Source of the DNA: Methylococcaceae bacterium | Lineage (GTDB): Bacteria; Pseudomonadota; Gammaproteobacteria; Methylococcales; Methylomonadaceae | Direction: 5' to 3' | NCBI GenBank assembly: GCA_013140705.1 | Contig: JABFSH010000034.1 | Coordinates: 62,001-126,000 of the forward strand | Length of the DNA: 64,000 nt | Shown here: piece by piece, positions 1,055-30,879 of the stretch | How the letters are laid out: every line of letters begins with the position of its first letter | Position numbering within the stretch: position 1 is the stretch's first letter | Program-made: the position numbers and the translations under genes | Notes under the pieces: generated by a model | Told to the model about the DNA's origin: nothing | The model's database searches: none | Seen by the model: the letters and a program-made list of their open reading frames with translations, nothing else

Positions 1055-2716
1055 TTATTTATGGGTTTGTGTTCGCCATAAATTGACGATTTCTGCCACG
1101 TCGAGATCATTCGGGCCTACTCTCCAGCCTGTAAAATAATCTACGTCGTTACTTTTCGGTTCGGGGTTGGGCCGGTAAATTTGAACGCGCGTCGGCATGG
1201 GCGCCGCCTCTCCCAGAACAAGCGCCTCCCCTCTGCCCAACGAACTGAGAATGTCGGTTAAATCTCCCTCGGCTTCAGGAACCAGCCCCCGGATGTAGGC
1301 TTGATCATCCGGATTGCTGGTGCGAAGACAAATAAAGGAACTGCATTGAGACAGCATGGTTTCAGACAATTCTGTCGGCCGCTGACTAACCACTCCAATT
1401 GAAACGCCGTATTTACGACCTTCCTTGGCTATGCGTTCCATCATTTTCTTGGCGCCTTCAAAGCGGCCGCCTTTCTCTCGAGGAATATAGGAATGGGCTT
1501 CTTCACAGATCAAGGTAATCGGAAATTCCCGTCGGGAAGGATTCCAGTAATTAAATTCGTAAGCCAGACGCCCAACTTCCGCACAAACCGATGGCCTGAC
1601 ATCAGCCGGAACCGAGCTTAAATCAATGACCGTAACATTGCCCTTTTTAACACCAACCCCAACAAACTGACTTAACAAATCGGCCATGCTTTCAGAAGTA
1701 TTATGGATTTTGGGCTTTAACAGGAAATCATAGCGGACATCATTGAAGCGACTTTGCAGTCTAATAAGAAATTCATCAAACTGTCCAAATAAAGGACCTA
1801 ATACCTTGCCAAACTCTTTTCTTTCCTCATTGGCTGCTTTAATTTGCATATACAATTCTGCCAACGGAAAGTAAATGGGCGTATCCACTGTAACGGTTGC
1901 CAATCCTAATCGTCTGGCCTCTTTTCGTTTGAGCTGAGATATCACTTCGCGCATAAATGTCATTTGGATGGATGCCGATTTATCCGTCCGGTCAATAAAC
2001 AAATCAACCAGTTCTGCATAGGGCATCAACCAATACGGCATTTCTATTTCCGTGGCGTCGAGATAATTAACTTGATCATCAGGAAATGCAGATTGCAGGG
2101 AGCCATCCGGTTCTCTCCAGCAATACTCGCCATGCAAATCCAGCAAAATAATATGGCTTTTTGGCATGGCTTTGATGGTAGTTTGAATCAGACTGGTAAC
2201 CGTCCAGGATTTTCCCGCCCCGGATTGACCGACAATGGCAAAATGGCGGCCAAAAAGCGCCCTGGGATCAAGCGCTAAATGGTAATCTTTATGCGATGCC
2301 AGCTGTCCAATAAAAAACTGGTAGTCCCTGAATTTGGCAAAAATGGCGTTGATTTCCCGCAAGCCTACTGCATACACTTTTGCACCCGGCGTCGGGTAAT
2401 GACGTACACCCCGGATAAATGTGCCATTCTCTTGTAATTCGCCAACGGGAATCAGGGAAATAAAACGATCTGAATGTCGCGTGCCGCTTGTATCGAAACG
2501 GTCTCTCTCCCACATTTTAAACACCATTGCCAAAACAGCGATGTGGGCTTGTCGGATAACCACGTAGGAGCCAACATGTCCGGCCAATATTTCATCATCG
2601 CCGACTTTGATCAAGGGTGTTTCGCAGGCATGTTCCGGATCTAGCCGGGCTTCCATGCCATCGCCGCGAACTTCGGATAAATTGCCGATCTGAATTGAAG
2701 TTTGTTGTTCGATCAT
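1055..2716 (-). CDS. HerA-like hexameric ATPase (DUF87/FtsK-HerA superfamily)
   Basis: A 553-residue protein. It has an N-terminal barrel-like region (1-140), a Walker A motif GQSGAGKS (about 163-170) and a Walker B strand ending ITLICEEAH (about 400-408), followed by a sensor-like SQRP (about 444). This is the layout of HerA/DUF87 ATPases, which form hexameric DNA pumps. Canonical HerA works with the nuclease NurA in end resection, and some bacterial relatives work in phage defence. Here no nuclease, SIR2 or other effector gene is adjacent: the feo operon lies on one side and an unrelated convergent gene on the other. The partner and role are therefore open. The family call is firm, the function is not. 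Confidence 0.8.
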   Translation of the reverse strand: MIEQQTSIQIGNLSEVRGDGMEARLDPEHACETPLIKVGDDEILAGHVGSYVVIRQAHIAVLAMVFKMWERDRFDTSGTRHSDRFISLIPVGELQENGTFIRGVRHYPTPGAKVYAVGLREINAIFAKFRDYQFFIGQLASHKDYHLALDPRALFGRHFAIVGQSGAGKSWTVTSLIQTTIKAMPKSHIILLDLHGEYCWREPDGSLQSAFPDDQVNYLDATEIEMPYWLMPYAELVDLFIDRTDKSASIQMTFMREVISQLKRKEARRLGLATVTVDTPIYFPLAELYMQIKAANEERKEFGKVLGPLFGQFDEFLIRLQSRFNDVRYDFLLKPKIHNTSESMADLLSQFVGVGVKKGNVTVIDLSSVPADVRPSVCAEVGRLAYEFNYWNPSRREFPITLICEEAHSYIPREKGGRFEGAKKMMERIAKEGRKYGVSIGVVSQRPTELSETMLSQCSSFICLRTSNPDDQAYIRGLVPEAEGDLTDILSSLGRGEALVLGEAAPMPTRVQIYRPNPEPKSNDVDYFTGWRVGPNDLDVAEIVNLWRTQTHK

Positions 2717-2810
2717 GGCAGACTCTTGCTGATTAAAGTTACAACAAGCTTAGACCAGTTTGAACTGAATAGCAGGGAAGGCCTTAAGGTGGTTACTCCA
2801 GCCTTTTATC

Positions 2811-3035
2811 TCAATTATCAATCCATTCATAAATTTCTGTCATGGCTGGATCACATTGACAGCAACTGGTGCCACAAGCCGATTCCCGAGTCAACTTTCG
2901 AACGTGACCTTTGCTCATCCATTTTCCCAGCATGCCTCGCAAGGCATTGGCATCCATATTAAAATGAATGGCCAAATCTGCCAGCGCAACTTTCCTCTGC
3001 TGCTTAAGATAGCTGCGTAGATCAGACAGAATCAC
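2811..3035 (-). CDS. feoC: FeoC-like Fe-S winged-helix protein
   Basis: A 74-residue protein beginning MILSDLRSYL, with the small winged-helix fold of FeoC (residues 1-50) and a Cys cluster C-x3-C-C-x2-C near residues 54-60. FeoC proteins bind an iron-sulphur cluster through such cysteines and modulate the stability or activity of FeoB. Its start lies inside the 3' end of feoB (14-base overlap), so it is the last gene of feoABC and probably coupled to feoB translation. It could also act as a transcription regulator; experiments in other species favour a role at FeoB. Confidence 0.85.
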   Translation of the reverse strand: MILSDLRSYLKQQRKVALADLAIHFNMDANALRGMLGKWMSKGHVRKLTRESACGTSCCQCDPAMTEIYEWIDN

Positions 3036-5352
3036 TGAACGACTCCCGGTTGTGATTTGTGGTCATATTTTTGCCGGCTAACCACAAGCCGGCTATAACC
3101 AGTAAAAAACTTAACACGAGACCTGTTATCCAGACTAATGAATACTCTGGATGTTGTTGGTATGTTGCTATTTGATAAAAAATAATGGCTGTCATATAGG
3201 CCATGCCCGTTGTCCAGAATATGACAAAAATTGTCCATCTTAAACTGGTTTCTCTGAAGATTGCTGCTGTAGCTGCCACACAGGGCGCATAGAGAAGTAT
3301 GAACAATAAATAGGCAAACGCTCCTGCCTTGCCATCAAAACTTTCGCGCATCGCGCTAAACGTTTGCGCATTAACACCTTGTTCGCTGGCAGCCGATGAA
3401 ATGTCATCGACTTTACCAATATTAAGCCCCAGCGGATCTAACAGGTTATCAGCAACTGCCGACAAATTTTGTGGAACCGTCAGACAGGCACTCATCAACG
3501 CTTCTTTAAAATCAAAGGGCGGCTTTTCGGTTGTATTTCCCGAAACCTCACTGTACAAGGCATTCAAGGTTCCAACTACGGCTTCTTTTGCCAGAACACC
3601 GGTAAAAATTCCAACTGTAGCCGGCCAATTATCGTCTTCAATACCCATAGGCTTGAAAACGGGCGTTAATCCGCGTCCAATTTCGCTCAATACCGATTTA
3701 TTGCTGTTTTCCTTTCCAAAACTACCGTCCGTTCCCAGTGCATTCAGAAAATTCAATACCAGCACCATCGGTACAATCACTTTTCCGGCATTGAACAGAA
3801 ACGATTGCAATCGGTCCCATGTCTTGATGAAAACACCGCGCAATGTCGGTAAATGATAGGCCGGTAATTCCATAATAAATGGCGCCGATTCGCCTTTAAA
3901 TACCGTGTGACGCATTATTAAACCCGTCAATACAGCAACTGCTATTCCGAGCAAATACAGGCCAAAAACCAAGTTCTGTCCGCCAACTGGAAAAAAGGCT
4001 GCAGCAAATAAAGCGTAAACAGGTAATCGAGCTCCGCACGACATGAAAGGATTCATCATATTGGTCAGTATCCTGTCTCGTTGATTTTCGAGTGTTCGCG
4101 TTGCCATTATCGCGGGAACATTACATCCGAAACCGACTATCATCGGGACAAATGATTTTCCAGGCAAGCCGATCACCCGCATAAACCTGTCCACGACAAA
4201 AGCGGCTCTGGACATGTAGCCTGAATCTTCCAGTGCGGACAAGAACATGAATAAAAATCCAACGATAGGTATAAAGGTCGCCACTACCTGGATACCGCCA
4301 CCCACTCCATTTGCCAATAATACAATCAGCCATTGCGGCCAATTAATCCGGGTTAACACATGACTCAAGCCATCGACCAAAAAGGCACCAACGGTCTGCT
4401 CGAAGAAATCTACAAAGGCACTACCGATGTTTATAGTAAACATAAACATGGTGTACATAACCAACAGAAAGACGGGAATACCCCAGAGGCGGTTTAACAC
4501 AACGCTGTCAATTTTATCGGTGACGTGACGGGTGACTTCATTGATCTTGCAGACTGCTGCCTGGGTTAATTCATTTACGAATCCGTAACGGGCATCGGCA
4601 GCAAGAATATCAATTTCATCGCCGGTTTCATTTTCTACCTGACGTTGGAATTCCGATACCGCTACTTCAAGGCTGCTTCCTGCGATCTCGCGGGCAAGCG
4701 TATCACCTTCGAGTAATCGAACCGCTAACCATCTAGGATCACAGCGGTATCGATTGGCAGATTCTTGTAACTTGGGCAATAATTCTGCGATTGCAGATTC
4801 TAACGCAGTTGTGTAAACAATTTTTATCGCTGGAATTGGATGTGTTTCAGTAGCCCGATTAATGGCTTTTTTTAACGCGGCCACACCTTCTTTAGTCGAA
4901 GCGGTAATAGGCAATACGGGACAACCGAGTTGCAAACTTAAAAAGTCTGAATCAATTTTGATCCCACGTTGTCTGACAGTATCCATCATGTTGAGTACCA
5001 AAATCATCGGCACTCGCATCTCTATTAATTGAGAACTCAAATAGAGATTTCGTTCAATATTGGCCGCATCAACGATATTAATGACGACATCGGCGACTCT
5101 TGATGCCACATAATCTCGGGCAATCTTTTCATCCAAAGAGACTTGATCATCTGATGCTTCTAACGAATAGGTTCCCGGCAGATCGACCAGTTCGATCACT
5201 TTACCTTCAAAAGCATATTCTCCGGTTTTTTTTTCGACCGTTACGCCCGGCCAATTTCCCACCTGCTGCCTGGCGCCGGTAAGAGCATTAAAGAGCGTGG
5301 TCTTGCCACAGTTGGGATTTCCAACAACCCCAACTGTGAAATGGGGGTTCAT
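3022..5352 (-). CDS. feoB: Ferrous iron transporter FeoB
   Basis: A 776-residue inner-membrane Fe(II) transporter. The N-terminal G domain shows G1 GNPNCGKTT (residues 11-19), a G2 region around PGVTVEKKTG, G3 DLPGTYSL, G4 NMMD and a G5-like ITAST. After the helical spacer come the membrane domain with paired Gate regions, including GFGCNVPAIMATRT and the SCGARLPVYAL segment, and a hydrophobic C-terminus. Length and motifs are those of full-length proteobacterial FeoB. Its ATG directly abuts the feoA stop codon and its 3' end overlaps feoC, giving the order feoA-feoB-feoC. Expression is probably controlled by the Fur-like site before feoA. Confidence 0.97.
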   Translation of the reverse strand: MNPHFTVGVVGNPNCGKTTLFNALTGARQQVGNWPGVTVEKKTGEYAFEGKVIELVDLPGTYSLEASDDQVSLDEKIARDYVASRVADVVINIVDAANIERNLYLSSQLIEMRVPMILVLNMMDTVRQRGIKIDSDFLSLQLGCPVLPITASTKEGVAALKKAINRATETHPIPAIKIVYTTALESAIAELLPKLQESANRYRCDPRWLAVRLLEGDTLAREIAGSSLEVAVSEFQRQVENETGDEIDILAADARYGFVNELTQAAVCKINEVTRHVTDKIDSVVLNRLWGIPVFLLVMYTMFMFTINIGSAFVDFFEQTVGAFLVDGLSHVLTRINWPQWLIVLLANGVGGGIQVVATFIPIVGFLFMFLSALEDSGYMSRAAFVVDRFMRVIGLPGKSFVPMIVGFGCNVPAIMATRTLENQRDRILTNMMNPFMSCGARLPVYALFAAAFFPVGGQNLVFGLYLLGIAVAVLTGLIMRHTVFKGESAPFIMELPAYHLPTLRGVFIKTWDRLQSFLFNAGKVIVPMVLVLNFLNALGTDGSFGKENSNKSVLSEIGRGLTPVFKPMGIEDDNWPATVGIFTGVLAKEAVVGTLNALYSEVSGNTTEKPPFDFKEALMSACLTVPQNLSAVADNLLDPLGLNIGKVDDISSAASEQGVNAQTFSAMRESFDGKAGAFAYLLFILLYAPCVAATAAIFRETSLRWTIFVIFWTTGMAYMTAIIFYQIATYQQHPEYSLVWITGLVLSFLLVIAGLWLAGKNMTTNHNRESFSDSV

Positions 5353-22079: not shown

Positions 22080-23411
22080 TTATTTTGCAAACGACCGACC
22101 AATACTGTAATAAACAAGGCCTAGTTTCTTCAAAAGTTGCGGCTGATACAGATTCCTGCCATCAAAAACGACAGCATCCTTTAAAGTGTGTTTGATGAAT
22201 TCAAAATCAGGGCTCCAAAAGTTTTTCCATTCCGTCACAACACACAAGGCATTGGCACCTTGTAAAGCCGCTTCAGCCGTTTCTACCAAAACCAAGCCCG
22301 CCTTGTCGCCATAAATTCTTTTTGCCTCGTCCATCGCTTCAGGATCATAGGCCCTGACCGTTGCGCCAGCCTCAATGAGTGCTTCCAGCAGAACCCGGCT
22401 GGGCGCTTCACGCATATCATCCGTTTTCGGCTTGAATGCCAAGCCCCAAAGCGCAAATGTTTTTCCTGCAAGATTACCTTGGTAATGGTGGATGATTTTG
22501 TTAAATAAAACCTGCTTTTGCCGGTTATTGACATTTTCGACGGCATTCAGCAACTCGGCCTTATAGCCAATTTGTTGAGCTGAGCGTTCCAATGCTTTAA
22601 CATCTTTTGGGAAACACGAACCACCATAGCCGCATCCAGGATAAATAAATGAATAGCCGATCCGGGAATCGGAACCTATGCCGTTCCTGACCTGCTCGAT
22701 GTCTGCGCCCACCATTTCCGCCAGATTGGCCAGTTCATTCATAAAACTGATTTTGGTAGCCAACATCGCATTGGCCGCATATTTTGTTAATTCGGCAGAA
22801 CGGATATCCATGGTAATCACGCGTTCATGACTGCGATTAAAGGGCGCATAGAGTGCCTTTAAAAGCTCTGCGGTTCTTGGATTGTCGGTACCAACAATAA
22901 TCCGGTCGGGTTTCATGAAATCATTAATCGCCGCGCCTTCTTTCAAAAACTCCGGATTTGACACCACATCAAAATCAATTTCTACGCCGCGTTCAGCTTG
23001 CACGGCCAGCATCACCGACTTCACTTTATCTGCTGTACCAACCGGTACGGTGGATTTGTCCACGACAATACGGTAATCCAGCATATGTTCAGCAATCGAT
23101 TTAGCCACCGCCAAAACATATTGTAGATCCGCTGATCCATCTTCATCGGGCGGTGTACCCACGGCGATAAACTGGAATGTCCCATGGTTAACGGCTTCGG
23201 GTATGTCCGTAGTGAACTTTAATCGACCGGCCTGCTGATTTTCCTTAATCAACGTATCAAGGCCGGGTTCATAAATAGGAATGACGCCACTTTTCAGATT
23301 ATCAATCTTTTTCTGATCGATATCGATACATAGCACCTCATTACCAACTTCAGCCAAACAGGCGCCCGTTACCAAACCCACATAGCCTGAGCCAAAAACC
23401 GTAACTTTCAT
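22080..23411 (-). CDS. ugd: UDP-glucose 6-dehydrogenase
   Basis: A 443-residue NAD-dependent enzyme oxidising UDP-glucose to UDP-glucuronate for polysaccharides. It has the Rossmann motif [10 protein letters not shown] (7-16), the VGTPPDEDG segment, NPEFLKEG and the catalytic cysteine in GGSCFPKD (Cys266). Length is standard for bacterial Ugd. It is the last gene of the leftward cluster starting at 27674 and lies 48 bases after the glycosyltransferase. This suggests that glucuronate or a derived sugar is a building block for that system. Confidence 0.95.
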
Positions 23412-23459
23412 TCTTTATCTCCAATCTTTTTTTCTATTTTGGCAATACTTAATTGATAT

Positions 23460-24668
23460 TCACTCTGCTGTAAGCAATCCGGAGTAAATCTTGATATAAC
23501 GACCCACACTTTTCGCCCAGTTTCTTTCCTGTTCAACATACTGCCTACCCGCCTGACGGAGCGCATCCCATTGTTGGGGTTGATTTAACAAATCGAGCAC
23601 GGCTGTTGCTAACGCATCCGCATCATTCGCTTTGAACAAGTACCCATTCTGAGCATTGGTAATCAGCTCTTTATGTCCGCCCACATCCGAGGCAACAACC
23701 ATTCGCCCTTGCGCCATGGCTTCCAATGGTTTCAAAGGCGTTACCAGATCGGTAAGACGCATGGACAACCGCGGATAAACAAAAATATCGACTTGATTAT
23801 AGTAATCCTGCACTTGATCATGAGCGATTCGACCCGTAAAAAGTACCAGACTATCCAGTTTTAATTCCTGGACTTTTTGTTTAATTAAAGCTTCTTGTGG
23901 ACCACCCCCAACCAATAGCACCCGAATTTCCGGCTGTTGTACCACTATTTTTGGCAAGGCCTCCAAAAGCAGGGGCAAACCTTCGTAGGCATAAAACGAA
24001 CCGATAAAACCCAGCACGACTTTATTCTGCAAACCCAAACGTGTTCTTAAGTCTTGATCCGGCTGGACACCATAGCTGAATCGCTCTATGTCCACTGCAT
24101 TGGGAATGACTGTAATTTTGTCTGGTGCAATACCCCGGGTGACAATATCAGAACGCAAACCTTCACAAATCGTAGTGATGGCATCGACTTTTTTGAACAC
24201 ATGGGTTTCAAGCATTTTTGTCAGGTAATAACGCAAACTAGCTTCAGTTGTCGTGCCATGATCAACCGCCGCATCTTCCCAAAACGCCCGACATTCATAC
24301 ACGACCGGAATCTTGTGTCGCTTGCCCGCTTTAATGGCCGCCATAGCGGTTAATGCCGGAGAATGGGCGTGGAGAATATCGGGCTTTATTTGCGGGATAA
24401 TTTCGTCGAGTCGCTTTCCCAACGAGTGCACTATTGCACATTGATTTAAAACTGGAATTTTTGCAATCACCGAATGCAGCGGACTGGAACGATAAAAGGT
24501 AAAGCCATCGACTGTTTCAACAGAGGCACTGGTTCCGAAGTGTTTACAGGACGTCACATGAAACGTTTCCCAGCCTAATTTTCTTTGTTGTTCAAGGATC
24601 GCTTTGGTACGAAACGAATAACCACTATGAAGCGGTATCGAGTGATCAAGAATATGAAGAATTTTCAT
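23460..24668 (-). CDS. Glycosyltransferase family 4, exosortase-A-associated type
   Basis: A 402-residue GT-B fold retaining transferase. The start MKILHILDHSIPLHSGYSFR and the following GWETFHVTS stretch are what I recall for the subfamily named in databases as exosortase A system-associated glycosyltransferase (TIGR04063-like). The C-terminal half shows GT4 features: VLGFIGSFYAYEGL, a nucleotide-sugar site ending PLKPLEAMAQGRMVVASDVGG. The natural acceptor is unknown. I chose the ATG at 24668 because the longer frame adds 27 unmatched residues. No exosortase gene is in this window. It is part of the 22-27.7 kb cluster. Confidence 0.85.
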   Translation of the reverse strand: MKILHILDHSIPLHSGYSFRTKAILEQQRKLGWETFHVTSCKHFGTSASVETVDGFTFYRSSPLHSVIAKIPVLNQCAIVHSLGKRLDEIIPQIKPDILHAHSPALTAMAAIKAGKRHKIPVVYECRAFWEDAAVDHGTTTEASLRYYLTKMLETHVFKKVDAITTICEGLRSDIVTRGIAPDKITVIPNAVDIERFSYGVQPDQDLRTRLGLQNKVVLGFIGSFYAYEGLPLLLEALPKIVVQQPEIRVLLVGGGPQEALIKQKVQELKLDSLVLFTGRIAHDQVQDYYNQVDIFVYPRLSMRLTDLVTPLKPLEAMAQGRMVVASDVGGHKELITNAQNGYLFKANDADALATAVLDLLNQPQQWDALRQAGRQYVEQERNWAKSVGRYIKIYSGLLTAE

Positions 24669-24729
24669 GAAGGGTATTATTGCTTGGTTGAGATTGCATG
24701 AATATGAAATTATAGTTTGCGCGGAATAC

Positions 24730-25809
24730 TTAATGTTGATCTTTTCCAATGACGCGTTTGTAGGCTTTGCGGGACAAATGCACCACTAGCAAATAAAACG
24801 GCATTTTTAACCAGTGTGATCTGACGAATAACACCCAGCGCGCTAAACCCGTCCACCGATCGTTGCAGCTTTCATGATCCGGCATCAGCCCTCTCAAAAA
24901 TAGAGCATCCATCAATTTGAGTTTTAATTTACCGCACGAGCGCGCTTCCTCCACCGCAAACACTTCATCAGGTACTGGTGTATGCAAAATTAATCGAGTG
25001 TATCTCAATGCGTAATACAACGGAACAGTTTGTTTGAGTTCATTGGCACGTTGAATTAAATTGCGCCAAAAATGTGGCTGTATCGAAAATTCTTTGAGTA
25101 ACAAATCCAGATCGGACAAATCTCTGAGTCCAGCATCAAATTCACCTTCATGAAATAAATGCGCTGCGCTGTGGATGACCCTATCAATGTCGGACAACAG
25201 CCATTCTCCGTTGATTTCAACGCTATGCTCCAAAAGTTTTTTACTGGCCGGGCAATGACGACTGGTTAATGGCAGAATATTATGATGCACATCAACCGCA
25301 GTACCTCTCCTATAATTCTGTAGTGGTGGAATCTCGTGCATCCACTCGCGATAATATTTTTGATCGTAGTCATCGAGTTCAGCGGCAGGCATCCAGCCAG
25401 CTGCTGACAAGGCTTGCTCGGTAGCGGCAAGCGCTTCTCTATCGACGAGAATATCAACATCGGAAAATACTCGTCCTAAAGCAGCCCGATTCTTTGCAAT
25501 GGCATAGCTGCAGCCTTTCAGAAACACCGGTTTGACGGCTACACTATTTAACGCCTGCTTTATGAGTCTGATTTCCCAGTGTAGCGACACAGCGAACTGC
25601 GTGGCATAGATCTGCGCTGACATAAAATGATTGGCCGCTTGGCAGGGTATGGCGACACCTTGATTTTTTAACAACACGTCTAGCCTTGCCAATAATCCGG
25701 CACGGCGTGCCTGCCTGACCAGCAAATCCCAATCGGAAAGACTCAGCTTCTCCGCGCTCCCAGGGTTTCTTAACAAAGCGATTATCGGCAGAGGAGCATC
25801 ACGCATCAT
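24730..25809 (-). CDS. Nucleotidyltransferase-fold protein (NTP_transf_5-like)
   Basis: A 359-residue protein with a minimal nucleotidyltransferase signature: FLKGCSYAIAKNRAALGRVFSDVDILV, where the SDVD carboxylates (about 116-119) would bind metal. The rest is mainly helical. Members of this family (PF14907-like) are frequently found beside exosortase, lasso peptide or PqqD-containing loci; their substrates are mostly unknown. Its ATGA start overlaps the stop of the kinase gene upstream by 4 bases, strong evidence of co-translation. It may transfer a nucleotidyl group to a protein or sugar; this is inference. Confidence 0.75.
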   Translation of the reverse strand: MMRDAPLPIIALLRNPGSAEKLSLSDWDLLVRQARRAGLLARLDVLLKNQGVAIPCQAANHFMSAQIYATQFAVSLHWEIRLIKQALNSVAVKPVFLKGCSYAIAKNRAALGRVFSDVDILVDREALAATEQALSAAGWMPAAELDDYDQKYYREWMHEIPPLQNYRRGTAVDVHHNILPLTSRHCPASKKLLEHSVEINGEWLLSDIDRVIHSAAHLFHEGEFDAGLRDLSDLDLLLKEFSIQPHFWRNLIQRANELKQTVPLYYALRYTRLILHTPVPDEVFAVEEARSCGKLKLKLMDALFLRGLMPDHESCNDRWTGLARWVLFVRSHWLKMPFYLLVVHLSRKAYKRVIGKDQH

Positions 25810-26699
25810 TTGGCCAGATTTGCAAAATACCCAACCGCCTCCTCAAGCTGACTGTATTCGAGTCGAAAGCAATCGCAGTTCTCAACCACATCACACAGCG
25901 CTTCAAACCCGCTTGCACCCAGCACATTGAAGTTAAATGCGTTTTTAGCCAAGTCCAGAACGGCGGCGGCTTTGCTAATAGTTTCTACAGACAGTCTGGT
26001 TTCCTGACGAAATTGCGGAAATACCACCCAAGCCCCCTTTGTCCGCTGGGTGGCGTTTTGTACACTTGTTACCGGCGGCTTCATGTGTGATACCGTACCT
26101 TTGGCGGTATCATGGAAAGACTCGCCCATCACTACATCCGGTACAAATTCTTTGATGATCGGGATGGATTCGTTTTTAAGACTGACGGGACGCACAATAG
26201 GAATTAATTCCGTGCTGATCAGGTCAATCATCGCCATTTCATCCGATAAGAGTCGCCAGCCGCGTCCCACGAGTGCAGCGCAAAGCGTACTCTTTCCCGC
26301 GCCTGGCTGACCCGGCAGAATAATGGCTTGACCGTTTTGTTCAACAACTGCGGCATGGAGCAATAAATGCCTGAAGTGATGATTGGCAATACACCAGTTC
26401 AAACCCCACTCAAAAAAAGGAAAGGCTTGGGAATAAGGCAATGGCTTGAATGGGGTTTTACCATCGAACTTGAACTGAACTTGCGGTCTTAAGAAGCGCC
26501 GCAGACCGCCAACAGGATCAATACGGATATGAAAATCGACAAAAATTTCGGCCTTTGGATCGAAAAAATCATGCGCTTGATACAGGTGGGATACGGACGA
26601 CTGAACGGCGGGGATAGCAGATTGCAATTTGACTACAAATGGATCAATTGACAGAATTGCTTGATCATCAACAAACGCTACACTGGAACGAATTGGCAC
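25806..26699 (-). CDS. HprK-related kinase A
   Basis: A 297-residue protein related to the C-terminal domain of HPr kinase/phosphorylase. The P-loop GQPGAGKST lies at about 130-138, preceded by LLLHAAVVEQNGQAIILP and followed by the GWRLLSDEMAMIDL segment. These are the hallmarks I recall for the database family HprK-related kinase A, defined by its co-occurrence with a PqqD-like protein. No HPr (PtsH) gene is nearby. I infer that it phosphorylates, or otherwise activates, a peptide or protein of this cluster rather than HPr. GTG start; it follows the PqqD-like gene by 9 bases. Confidence 0.85.
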   Translation of the reverse strand: MPIRSSVAFVDDQAILSIDPFVVKLQSAIPAVQSSVSHLYQAHDFFDPKAEIFVDFHIRIDPVGGLRRFLRPQVQFKFDGKTPFKPLPYSQAFPFFEWGLNWCIANHHFRHLLLHAAVVEQNGQAIILPGQPGAGKSTLCAALVGRGWRLLSDEMAMIDLISTELIPIVRPVSLKNESIPIIKEFVPDVVMGESFHDTAKGTVSHMKPPVTSVQNATQRTKGAWVVFPQFRQETRLSVETISKAAAVLDLAKNAFNFNVLGASGFEALCDVVENCDCFRLEYSQLEEAVGYFANLAK

Positions 26700-26708
26700 T
26701 TATGTCTA

Positions 26709-26993
26709 TTATTCTCCGTTATAATCCAGCACACCATAACCGACAAACAGCTCAAGTGCTGTTGAAACATAACCAGGAAGTTCGTCGCTATTATTGATGT
26801 ACGCTTCTTTACCTAGAAAATCCAAAATTTCATCATACGTTGAAGATCGACTTCTAAGTAATTCCACTAATTTAAATGCCGCCCACTGAACAACCAATGT
26901 CTGACGGGTAGTTCCAGAGAAAATCAGATATTCCCCATTAAGATCACGACATGCAATTTCTTTGTTAGCGGAATAGAAACCAGTTTTAAGCAC
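26709..26993 (-). CDS. PqqD-family peptide-binding protein (HPr-rel-A system)
   Basis: A 94-residue protein resembling PqqD, a winged-helix-like fold that binds leader peptides (RiPP recognition element). The pattern of an N-terminal segment ending LIFSGTTRQTLVVQWAAFKLVELL, then a helix and a C-terminal LELFVGYGVLD, fits the PqqD-related proteins that accompany HprK-related kinase A. GTG start, 6 bases after the stop of the secreted-protein gene. By analogy with PqqD it would present that protein, or another peptide, to the downstream kinase or nucleotidyltransferase. No radical-SAM enzyme is adjacent, unlike pqq loci. Confidence 0.75.
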   Translation of the reverse strand: MLKTGFYSANKEIACRDLNGEYLIFSGTTRQTLVVQWAAFKLVELLRSRSSTYDEILDFLGKEAYINNSDELPGYVSTALELFVGYGVLDYNGE

Positions 26994-26999
26994 GAATTT

Positions 27000-27674
27000 T
27001 CAGGTACTCAAATCGGATAAATCAAGAATGCCATCAATAGCTTTAGCCCTGTCTTTGCATTTGGCCTCAGAATTGATCGGAATGGCGCTATAAAATGTAC
27101 CCGTCCCCGGATATCCATAAGCAGGAAAAAGCGCATCATTCAACAAGGCTACTACGTGTCGAGCGGCATAACTCTTTATGGATTTTCTCAACTCATCCAC
27201 ACCATCACTCTTGGATTTTTCCTTATCCTTATCCTTATCCTTATCCTTATCATCACCATCCTTGCAATTAAATCGCTTCTTCAGTTTACTGCCGTCAGTG
27301 ACAACTCTGGCCTCGCCCTGGAGCACTTCCAATAGCGTTGCATTACCAAAAAGACTGCCACAGGTATTATCAGTACCGAAAATATCGTCAAACCTGGTAG
27401 AGTTTTTTTGATACGGCGGGGGCCAAGCAGCCGCTCTAATAAATTGATCCCCTGTAAAACCGTTCGGTGGATTCGTACAACCATTCGAAAGATTTCCTGA
27501 CATCGTACCCGATACACCGCATTCCACCGCCCAAACCGGCTTGCTGGAAAGTGACATCAGCACGGGAGTAATAATTCCCGCCTTATTAAACTTCCGACGA
27601 GAATTATCAACCCCGGAAACTTCTGGAACGGGAATGCCGATAGGTTGGTTGTGTTCCTGTTTATTAAGCTTCAT
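27000..27674 (-). CDS. Exported Cys-containing protein with Tat-like leader; possible substrate of the HPr-rel-A cluster
   Basis: A 224-residue protein of unknown function. A polar N-terminus leads to SRRKFNK (residues 25-31), close to the Tat consensus SRRxFLK, a short hydrophobic stretch (AGIITPVLMSLSS) and a signal-peptidase-like VWA near residue 49. The mature part has five cysteines (about 52, 66, 105, 137, 206), a WPPPY motif and a highly charged Asp-Lys repeat (about 140-152). I recall proteins of this architecture beside PqqD/HprK-related genes, but cannot confirm it here. As first gene of the cluster it is the natural candidate for the modified product. Start: ATG at 27674, with AGGA about 7 bases upstream. 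Confidence 0.65.
   Translation of the reverse strand: MKLNKQEHNQPIGIPVPEVSGVDNSRRKFNKAGIITPVLMSLSSKPVWAVECGVSGTMSGNLSNGCTNPPNGFTGDQFIRAAAWPPPYQKNSTRFDDIFGTDNTCGSLFGNATLLEVLQGEARVVTDGSKLKKRFNCKDGDDKDKDKDKDKEKSKSDGVDELRKSIKSYAARHVVALLNDALFPAYGYPGTGTFYSAIPINSEAKCKDRAKAIDGILDLSDLST
27221..27250. repeat. In-frame 6-bp tandem repeat (five units)
   Basis: Five perfect tandem copies of CCTTAT, lying inside the exported-protein gene and encoding the alternating Asp-Lys run. The unit is two codons long, so a gain or loss of units keeps the reading frame and only changes the length of the charged linker. Confidence 0.9.
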
Positions 27675-28926: not shown

Positions 28927-30879
28927 CTACTTTGCATCGCCAATCGGCGCTGAAAAAGCATCGGACACCAGCTCGTTGACATTATCGCCCGTCAACGACT
29001 GCAAAAATACAATCAATTCGTCCTGCTCGGATTCCGTTAACTTTAACGGCTTTATCAGCGGATCAAGATTTTCGTTGGCATGTCCGCCGCGATCATAAAA
29101 CTGCACCACTTGTTGCAGTGTTGCCAGGCTGCCATTGTGCATATAAGGTGCGGTCAATCCGATATTGCGTAGCGTTGGCGTTTTGTATTTCCAGCGATCT
29201 TCCGGTTTTTGGGTGACTTCATAACGCCCCATATCATTTGGAACAGTTTCTGATATTGCATCAATGATAGATGAAGCAACCTCTACATACGTGCCGGGGG
29301 CCACCTGGACACGTTGATTTGAACTGCCGTTTGTTGCCGTTTTATTCATGGCTTCTCTGTACCCTACTCCGGTGTTATGGAAATCGTTATCCGTAAATAA
29401 TGCGTGATGCTTCGTTAGCGTATGACATCCGGCGCATCCGGCCTTACCGGTAAAAAGTTTGAATCCGCGTTGTGCCTGGTCATTTAAAGCAGATTTATTT
29501 TTCCCATAATGCCAACGATCAAATGCTGAATTGGCGGAATTCAATGTTCGTTCATAGCTGGCAATCGCCATGCCAATCGATTCCATTCCCGCAGACTTGC
29601 CGAACACCCGCTGAAATCTGTGTCTGTAATCAACATCCCGATTGATTTTATCGATTACAAAACCGATTGAAGGATTCGCCATTTCATTATGCGCCAGCAA
29701 TGGCCCCCAAATTTGTTGCTCGAGCGCTGTTTCACGGCCATCGTGAAATAAGCTTCGGGAATAAGCAACGTTATACAGGGTGGGCGAATTCCGTCGAATC
29801 GTCCGTCCTTCAACGCCAACAGCGGTCGCCATTTCATTACTGGTAAAGCCCTGCTCCGGGATGTGGCACATGGCACAGGAAAAAGTATTATTAAAAGATA
29901 GCCGCCGGTCATAAAACAGCTTGCGCCCGAGAGCAATTTTTTCTTTAGTGGCCGGATTATCGGATGACATTGGCACAGGAGGCAAACCTAAAACTGGGTG
30001 GCTGATGGTTTTTAATAGATTAGCTTCATGGCCCACACGATCCGTTAGCGCGACTGATTTCGTCGCATAAGATTTTGTTTCATAATCGCTTTTATTATCT
30101 CCAGGTACAAAGCGATCAATAGCACTGAATTGCTTAGTATGTGCTTTTTGACTTGACAACTCTTCCTGAACCAACGTTTTAATGTCGTTAACCAATGTAT
30201 CCGGATGCAAAAATGCCACACTATAAATATTCCGTATTTGTTTGCGTTTGTCGATCAGATAAACCCGCAGATTATGTGAAAACGTATCGGTATTACGTCC
30301 CTGCTGATCATAAATCCTTTGAATGTTTTGCTTGTAGTGGTCCAGTATTGGTTGTAGTTGTAGTTCGGATCGCGTCGTCAGGAAATGCCAATCCAGGTTT
30401 TCATTCGCCAATCCCTGTCCATAATGTTTCATGACATCAGGCGTGTCATGTGTAGGGTTAAAGCTTAATGTCAATAACCTTAGTTGATCAGCCAATTCGG
30501 GTTGCTTTTGCACACGGTTTTTAATCTTGTGAAAAACCGCTGTCGCCAGCGGACAACCATTGATGTCACCACAGGTTGAGTATATGAAACTGAGCAACAC
30601 CATCTTGTCGCCCATCTTTTGATGTAGTCGAAAGGAACTGCCATCGGAGTCCAGAACGTCTCCGTCAGCCGCCCTACCCAACACAGGAAGTTCATAACTT
30701 CCCGGTGGCGATGGCTCAAATTGCAGACTTTCATAACCCGGCGCCAGCGTTTGCTTTTGGACTGTCTCTGCCCGAAGCATGTCACTAACGAAAATTATCG
30801 CAAGCAACATTAAAATTTTATGCAAACCGGTTATTTTCATTCGGCGTTGCAAAGTAGTTTCTCCAAAATGTTTGTCCAT
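28927..30879 (-). CDS. SCO1/SenC domain fused to MauG/cytochrome c peroxidase-like di-haem protein
   Basis: A 650-residue periplasmic fusion. A signal sequence (about 14-37) is followed by a SCO1/SenC thioredoxin-like domain (about 60-240) with cysteines 103 and 109 and His202, the usual Cu ligands. The cysteine spacing is C-x5-C rather than C-x3-C. Residues 300-640 form a di-haem peroxidase/MauG domain with haem motifs CAMCH (335-339) and CAGCH (482-486) and an APYMHNG axial-ligand segment. It may combine copper handling with oxidation of a protein or H2O2. The ATG at 30879 gives the longest form; a TTG at 30852 behind GGAG and an ATG at 30840 are also possible starts. Confidence 0.88.
   Translation of the reverse strand: MDKHFGETTLQRRMKITGLHKILMLLAIIFVSDMLRAETVQKQTLAPGYESLQFEPSPPGSYELPVLGRAADGDVLDSDGSSFRLHQKMGDKMVLLSFIYSTCGDINGCPLATAVFHKIKNRVQKQPELADQLRLLTLSFNPTHDTPDVMKHYGQGLANENLDWHFLTTRSELQLQPILDHYKQNIQRIYDQQGRNTDTFSHNLRVYLIDKRKQIRNIYSVAFLHPDTLVNDIKTLVQEELSSQKAHTKQFSAIDRFVPGDNKSDYETKSYATKSVALTDRVGHEANLLKTISHPVLGLPPVPMSSDNPATKEKIALGRKLFYDRRLSFNNTFSCAMCHIPEQGFTSNEMATAVGVEGRTIRRNSPTLYNVAYSRSLFHDGRETALEQQIWGPLLAHNEMANPSIGFVIDKINRDVDYRHRFQRVFGKSAGMESIGMAIASYERTLNSANSAFDRWHYGKNKSALNDQAQRGFKLFTGKAGCAGCHTLTKHHALFTDNDFHNTGVGYREAMNKTATNGSSNQRVQVAPGTYVEVASSIIDAISETVPNDMGRYEVTQKPEDRWKYKTPTLRNIGLTAPYMHNGSLATLQQVVQFYDRGGHANENLDPLIKPLKLTESEQDELIVFLQSLTGDNVNELVSDAFSAPIGDAK

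Follow-up and report, generated by a model that had tools for sequence, protein, structure and literature searches.

A conserved Pseudomonadota gene cassette with a PqqD-like protein, an HprK-related kinase and a candidate exported substrate

We examined a 64,000-nucleotide stretch of a Methylococcaceae bacterium genome (assembly GCA_013140705.1, contig JABFSH010000034.1, positions 62,001 to 126,000; hereafter the window) and focused on six packed genes, all on the minus strand, between positions 22080 and 27674. The first four encode an exported protein, a PqqD-like protein, an HprK-related kinase A (HprK_rel_A) and an NTP_transf_5 nucleotidyltransferase-like protein. This locus is real, conserved and goes beyond ordinary annotation: its parts are known from phosphopeptide systems combining an HprK homologue with an RRE (recognition element of ribosomally synthesized and post-translationally modified peptides, RiPPs), while its exported substrates are undescribed. 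The cassette and its target gene recur in many bacteria and likely constitute an unstudied protein-modification pathway. Taken as a whole, the locus is probably best explained as a proteobacterial RRE-guided protein-modification cassette with the secreted protein as its target.

A conserved unit of four genes

The six leftward genes of the initial annotation were all recovered as open reading frames (ORFs) on the minus strand at unchanged positions. In order from the exported gene, the gaps between them were 6, 9, -4, 61 and 48 bases, so that the tight packing described before stood, except that the fourth gap had been given as 62 bases. The families named before were also supported (TIGR04352, TIGR04063, TIGR03026 and PF14907, all over cut-off). 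The six genes are the following, the length of the glycosyltransferase being counted from the ATG that agrees with its homologues:

27000..27674, minus strand: exported protein, candidate substrate, 224 amino acids, ATG start; own profile (A1), no Pfam or NCBIfam family over cut-off
26709..26993, minus strand: PqqD-like discrete RRE, candidate leader-binding adaptor, 94 amino acids; by family profile and predicted model
25806..26699, minus strand: HprK-related kinase A (HprK_rel_A), 297 amino acids; TIGR04352, 390 bits (cut-off 200)
24730..25809, minus strand: NTP_transf_5 nucleotidyltransferase-like protein, 359 amino acids, with D117-x-D119; PF14907, 155 bits (cut-off 31)
23460..24668, minus strand: XrtA/PEP-CTERM-type glycosyltransferase (stp3), 402 amino acids; TIGR04063, 631 bits (cut-off 442); exopolysaccharide context, outside the core
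22080..23411, minus strand: UDP-glucose 6-dehydrogenase-type enzyme, 443 amino acids; TIGR03026 (nucleotide-sugar dehydrogenase), 468 bits (cut-off 190); exopolysaccharide context, outside the core

The initial annotation had read these genes as one pathway. We rejected a six-gene unit because few cassettes are followed by the XrtA glycosyltransferase (10 of the 67 loci with room) or the dehydrogenase (3 of the 67), the window included; one locus (L056), in which both genes are in pieces and frameshifted, was left out of these counts. The conserved unit is the first four genes, and the last two are the context of an XrtA exopolysaccharide locus.

A scan of genome contigs gave 22 kinase relatives, and related genomes contributed 40 stretches; the first set counted comprised the 53 kinases with E<1e-50 and room upstream. 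A leader profile found an upstream protein with a twin-arginine-type (RR) signal at 50 of these 53 loci (49 out of 52 without a duplicate); of the other three, L020 and L021 had an RR protein recognised by eye only and L023 had none. The profile was seeded from 29 loci that were then also counted, and at the non-seed loci it matched upstream in 21 out of 24. The duplicate, L046, is a second copy of L008 and was included in the 53 and the 50; it was left out of an enlarged set of 103 kinases that included more distant Pseudomonadota, as were L001, L068, L094 and L095. Three of the 103 were cut by contig ends, and at about 92 of the remaining 100 loci an RR-signal protein adjoins the RRE/kinase pair (by profile, partly by eye). 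The NTP_transf_5 gene comes next on the same strand in 86 of the 99 loci with room.

In a sample of 398 genomes from the phylum, 61 had HprK_rel_A over cut-off, as did 34 of 101 related genomes. Profile A1 matched 30 of these 101 genomes (E<=0.01), namely 29 of the 34 kinase-bearing ones plus G058, where a fragment of the kinase lies at a contig end, and none of the remaining 66, among which 11 have kinase matches below cut-off only. Its one match in the window's own genome was the window protein. Among the five kinase-bearing genomes without a match, four have an RR protein of another class upstream (L026, L032, L036 and L053) and one locus is cut (L027). In G035 the match and the kinase lie on different contigs, both at contig ends, and extra matches to the C-terminal part only were found elsewhere in two kinase-bearing genomes (G023, E 7.5e-6, in a 2,056-amino-acid frame; G031, E 0.008). 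The RRE profile matched 36 of the 101 genomes, 34 at the kinase locus and two weakly elsewhere. The conserved link between the exported gene and the PqqD/HprK pair, which the initial annotation had put forward as a check, thus held across genomes. The same gene order was also present on public plasmid records of Sphingomonas (L122) and Vibrio alfacsensis (L119), in which the target is called 'hypothetical protein'; in the latter, the PqqD-like gene between the exported gene and the kinase (L119:4724-4978) is missing from the record's gene table. Because the same order recurs in many genomes, the arrangement is more than chance.

Exported protein, adaptor and enzymes

Two elements were delimited at the N-terminal side of the exported protein:

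27528..27605, minus strand: proposed signal/leader, residues 24-49 (NSRRKFNKAGIITPVLMSLSSKPVWA), with an RR motif, a P-x-L-x-x-L element and a V-W-A cleavage site, as read from the sequence
27486..27521, minus strand: candidate acceptor motif C52-G-V-S55-G-T-M-S59-G-N-L-S63, at the start of the predicted mature protein

The cleavage site was placed by eye, with A49 as the likely last signal residue. The leader contains a twin-arginine-type sequence, SRRKFNK (also read by eye), TatC is encoded in the genome, and further on the leader carries IITPVLMSL. Across loci, two classes were distinguished among the proteins with such leaders. In class I the signal is soon followed by SGN-x-S, mostly preceded by C-x-x-S, and besides this N-terminal motif there is a conserved C-terminal part (consensus AAYLNA). 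Of the 50 upstream proteins of the first set that bear the leader, 31 have SGNxS (one being the duplicate L046); its conservation in profile A1 arises by selection, because class I was defined by SGNxS. Class II, with 35 members out of 103 by pattern, has a C-terminal end of the C-[aromatic]-x-S type (e.g. SCWASI, TCFASL), and its members from distant lineages (L031, L032, L065, L072-L074 and L101-L104) have this end in common and differ in the rest.

When the two classes (48 rows of class I, 40 of class II) are mapped on the kinase tree, 2 changes suffice, compared with a mean of 29 for shuffled labels (0 out of 500 shuffles as low); the class of the substrate thus follows the tree, although relatedness inflates such counts. 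For these labels, 14 out of 103 were set by hand, 5 rows of the CxxPSSF type were counted as class I and 15 rows were unlabelled. In one genus (g10) both classes occur right after the same XrtA amidotransferase (class II in L032; class I in L033 and L054).

The leader profile joins proteins with unrelated cores. With its leader part only (profile positions ~2-56), nine matches had cores other than class I (E 5e-6 to 0.01). At >=15 bits it matched 69 of the 5,743 ORFs of the fetched loci, all at HprK loci; this control tests flanks only, because the stretches were centred on HprK genes, and the scan of the 101 related genomes served as the genome-wide control.

The core of the exported protein was modelled with a mean predicted local distance difference test score (pLDDT) of 65. 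A Foldseek search of the core against PDB gave no match at E<=10, which is no sign of a new fold, profile A1 found nothing among PDB sequences at E<=1, and none of the substrates scanned (29 class I and 10 others) matched an NCBIfam model over cut-off. Matches of the window protein to the Pfam I34 inhibitor and SGF29 tudor families were below cut-off and present in 1 of 29 members, and were dismissed. We also observed a charged low-complexity stretch in the exported protein (DGDDKDKDKDKDKEKSKSD; window 27200-27260, minus strand), which most relatives do not have at that place in the alignment.

The PqqD-like identity was upheld by the predicted model, which has an RRE-type fold, even though the single sequence scored under the cut-offs of the PqqD models. 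On its own, the window protein reached 14.3 bits with TIGR04353 (cut-off 35) and had no Pfam match; the sole match of a Pfam PqqD search of the genome was another protein, on contig C67. Within the family of 33 proteins at this position, 31 matched TIGR04353 at E<=0.01, the window protein not among them, and 12 matched Pfam PqqD. The profile of the 33 proteins matched TbiB1 (E 6.5e-4) and TfuB1 (E 7.2e-4) among PDB sequences. The model aligned to TbiB1 (5v1v) over 88 residues (Z 11.2, root-mean-square deviation 2.6), and the top Foldseek matches were TbiB1, PqqD and PbtF (probability 0.98-1.00, but E 0.02-0.1 and none <0.001); the PqqD-like part was modelled as residues 231-320 of a joined chain, with block-mean pLDDT of 61-91. 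The PqqD-like protein is thus modelled as an RRE winged-helix fold, as in the leader-binding domains of lasso-peptide systems.

The His, the P-loop Lys and the Asp-Glu pair of the kinase were kept in 103/103 kinases, and the kinase aligned to the HprK structures 1ko7 and 1jb1 (E 0.004-0.02). In NTP_transf_5, the residues K98, G99, R113, D117, D119, H158 and D173 were invariant in 86/86 aligned homologues. Judged by these conserved catalytic residues, both enzymes look active. The kinase shares with the HPr kinase/phosphorylase of the phosphotransferase system (PTS) a core with His, P-loop and Asp. Nevertheless, a canonical PTS HPr kinase was ruled out, since its TIGR00679 score (26.5 bits) is far under the cut-off of 240 and a PF00381 search found no HPr in the genome (99.97% complete), the same search being positive in 7 of 14 controls. 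The absence of HPr had been noted in the initial annotation, as had that of a radical-SAM enzyme; no such family was among the Pfam and NCBIfam matches listed for the six proteins.

Related systems

The initial annotation had called the joint function undescribed. This needs qualifying, given that lasso peptides and linear polyphosphorylated peptides (LPPs) are already known to be (poly)phosphorylated by systems that combine an HprK kinase with an RRE and an NTP transferase. In these systems, HprK homologues place one or more phosphates on a serine of the precursor, RREs present the precursors, and in pseudomycoidin PsmN adds hexoses onto the phosphorylated Ser (PMC9266682, PMC8498205, PMC13381572). 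The closest precedents are the phosphorylated lasso peptides (paeninodin and pseudomycoidin; PsmK/PsmN, PadeK) and the LPPs (LppK), the latter being the nearest.

LPPs, described in 2026 from Bacillota, have precursors of 35-200 amino acids that are phosphorylated near the new N-terminus, with phosphate on core Ser3, and are encoded in capsule loci (PMC13381572). A discrete RRE, an HprK-like kinase, an NTP transferase, an adjoining precursor and polysaccharide loci are shared features (PMC13381572); LppN and the window NTP_transf_5 are likened as NTP transferases by description. In LPPs the phosphate sits on a Ser close to the beginning of the core (PMC13381572), whereas here such a Ser is a candidate site only. 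Further differences were found. The window cassette belongs to Pseudomonadota and has an RR signal peptide as candidate leader. LPP systems have a SipW-like peptidase and an MsbA-like exporter; a scan of the six genes and four neighbours gave neither over cut-off, and the three S26 peptidases of this genome are all on other contigs. Finally, the YxxPxVLxHQ precursor motif of LPPs (in full, YxxPxVLxHQxIxFETxxS) is not present in the window leader; the window protein is longer and has SGNxS, and class II has the C-terminal C-[aromatic]-x-S.

The phosphorylated lasso systems share a PqqD-type RRE, an HprK homologue and, in some, a nucleotidyltransferase, and kinase-bearing proteobacterial lasso clusters exist, e.g. 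in Sphingobium yanoikuyae (PMC9266682, PMC8498205, PMC5067487). A lasso peptide was nevertheless ruled out here: the six genes include neither a lasso cyclase (C) nor a B2 protease, the candidate substrate is of the secreted type, and the asparagine-synthase homologue in the related half of the locus, on contig C5, is an XrtA amidotransferase. A Priestia plasmid record contains a lasso cluster with a kinase related to that of the window; this HprK-type kinase of the paeninodin-family cluster (L120:4668-5603) is annotated as 'aldolase'.

NCBIfam names an 'HPr-rel-A system' consisting of a kinase (TIGR04352) and a chaperone (TIGR04353). The window kinase is a member over cut-off, and the PqqD-like proteins are of the same family as the chaperone by the 31 of 33 matches given above, the window protein itself scoring under the cut-off. 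A literature search, with preprints and most subscription journals outside it, found no paper using the 'HPr-rel-A system' names and no recognised description of the cassette or its substrates.

At several related loci (L057, L058, L060, L062, L063 and L121) the kinases are longer and have a weak N-terminal RRE match (2-13 bits), which in L058 ties with an unrelated ORF. RR proteins beside four of these longer kinases have [YW]xxP inside the signal (YATP in L058, YTPP in L062, WTPP in L063 and YTAP in L121), which supports the reading of the signal as a leader. The L121 kinase (2609-4064) is called a PqqD family chaperone in PLSDB's table.

Proposed pathway, alternatives and genomic context

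We propose that the RR signal peptide would also serve as a leader of the RiPP type: its P-x-[LIV]-x-x-L stretch would dock on the PqqD-like RRE, and the RRE would present the exported protein in the cytoplasm to HprK_rel_A; the kinase would then phosphorylate one or more serines of C52-x-x-S55-G-x-x-S59-G-N-x-S63, just past the predicted cleavage site. These two steps together we hold to be quite likely. In a third step, which we regard as quite possible with some doubt, the NTP_transf_5 enzyme would add a sugar or nucleotide to that phosphate, like PsmN in pseudomycoidin. The marked protein would leave by the general export machinery, with Tat (twin-arginine translocation) a more probable route than Sec, and a housekeeping signal peptidase would remove the signal. 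The end product would be a phosphoprotein or phosphoglycoprotein, located at the surface or in the exopolysaccharide matrix.

If true, this reading would provide targets for the kinase/chaperone pair named by NCBIfam, for which the literature search found no described substrate, would carry RRE-guided modification beyond small peptides to entire secreted proteins, and would link protein export to RiPP-type leader recognition. The cassette offers a defined candidate site, a candidate leader and built-in controls, namely the cassettes of both classes found behind the same XrtA amidotransferase within a single genus. A broader version appears doubtful: a widespread Pseudomonadota pathway in which the export signal is the RiPP leader and a phosphosugar is placed on a folded secreted protein, at SGNxS in class I or at C-[aromatic]-x-S in class II, to yield a matrix phosphoglycoprotein.

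Several observations weigh against the proposed cassette. Most leaders of the window's class lack the aromatic residue of the known [Y/W]xxP motif (1 of 78 leaders, or 1 of 47 in the cleaner first set, has Y at P-3), and in a joined model of exported protein and RRE, built from a thin alignment, the leader was disordered (pLDDT <50) and did not bind as a strand; two other alignments for this model had misplaced rows and were unused. Leader docking is therefore something we infer, because the aromatic is usually replaced and the joined model leaves the leader unbound. The second acidic residue of the kinase is Glu, whereas characterised lasso kinases are reported to have His-Lys-Asp-Asp (PMC9266682). 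Class II has no SGNxS, and this acceptor is therefore not universal. Deletion of lppN, the LPP counterpart of the NTP enzyme, reportedly gave no visible change (PMC13381572). Some 8 out of 100 loci have no upstream RR protein (L023, L081, L083, L084, L090, L096, L107 and L111), with a leader-bearing ORF on the opposite strand in L081 and an ambiguous case in L107, and 13 of the 99 loci with room have no adjacent NTP_transf_5 at the threshold used. Locus counts do not equal independent events, because the loci come from related genomes.

The surroundings of the cassette bear on the role of its product. At 13 of the 67 loci with room, the gene immediately preceding the cassette is that of the XrtA amidotransferase, and the order in Methylomonas (L004) is stp1, stp2, XrtA amidotransferase, cassette and stp3. 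In the window's genome, contig C5 (L117:9282-15569) carries an XrtA deacetylase, a FemAB protein, stp1, stp2 and the XrtA amidotransferase, all over cut-off; this run ends at the amidotransferase, with unrelated genes beyond, and the cassette, stp3 and the dehydrogenase stand apart from it, in the window. The XrtA locus of this genome seems to be split in two, with the break at the place where the Methylomonas locus passes into the cassette. None of the exosortases of the genome was over the XrtA cut-off (190 and 141 bits, compared with 208), which counts against a plain XrtA story, and the Vibrio and Sphingomonas plasmid cassettes had no XrtA-type neighbours within the stretches examined. A role of the modified protein in the exopolysaccharide matrix is plausible, and we put it forward tentatively.

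Among the alternatives, we consider it unlikely that the product is a processed LPP-like RiPP, with the N-terminal SGNxS segment cut out as a signal or toxin. LPP precursors are handled by the same kinds of enzymes and phosphorylated near a new N-terminus (PMC13381572), and short products occur both in class II and among the RR peptides at related loci; however, class I proteins retain their conserved C-terminal part besides the N-terminal motif, and neither a peptidase nor an exporter was found among the six genes and four neighbours scanned. It is very unlikely that the kinase is a regulator of a cytoplasmic target controlling exopolysaccharide synthesis, with the exported gene as a passenger. 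An HprK of Xanthomonas is reported as a virulence-regulating serine kinase (PMC6916182), and the position after the XrtA amidotransferase would fit such a role, but the class of the substrate goes with the branching of the kinases, the 66 genomes that have neither a kinase over cut-off nor its fragment yielded no orphan homologue of the exported protein, and it is not obvious what an RRE adaptor would do in such a scheme. Finally, NTP_transf_5 as the main modifier (nucleotidylation, AMPylation-like), with the HprK homologue as a scaffold or reverse phosphatase, has very little likelihood: its D-x-D pair and other residues are kept in all aligned homologues, but so are the catalytic residues in all kinases, the kinase is present in loci without an adjacent NTP_transf_5, and the hexoses of pseudomycoidin are placed on a phosphorylated Ser (PMC9266682), so that there the kinase acts first.

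Outside the six genes, we observed a 650-amino-acid protein at window positions 28927-30879 (minus strand), which combines a MauG/MbnH-like di-heme part (TIGR04039, 259 bits, under the cut-off of 363) with an N-terminal part that by eye resembles SCO1/SenC.

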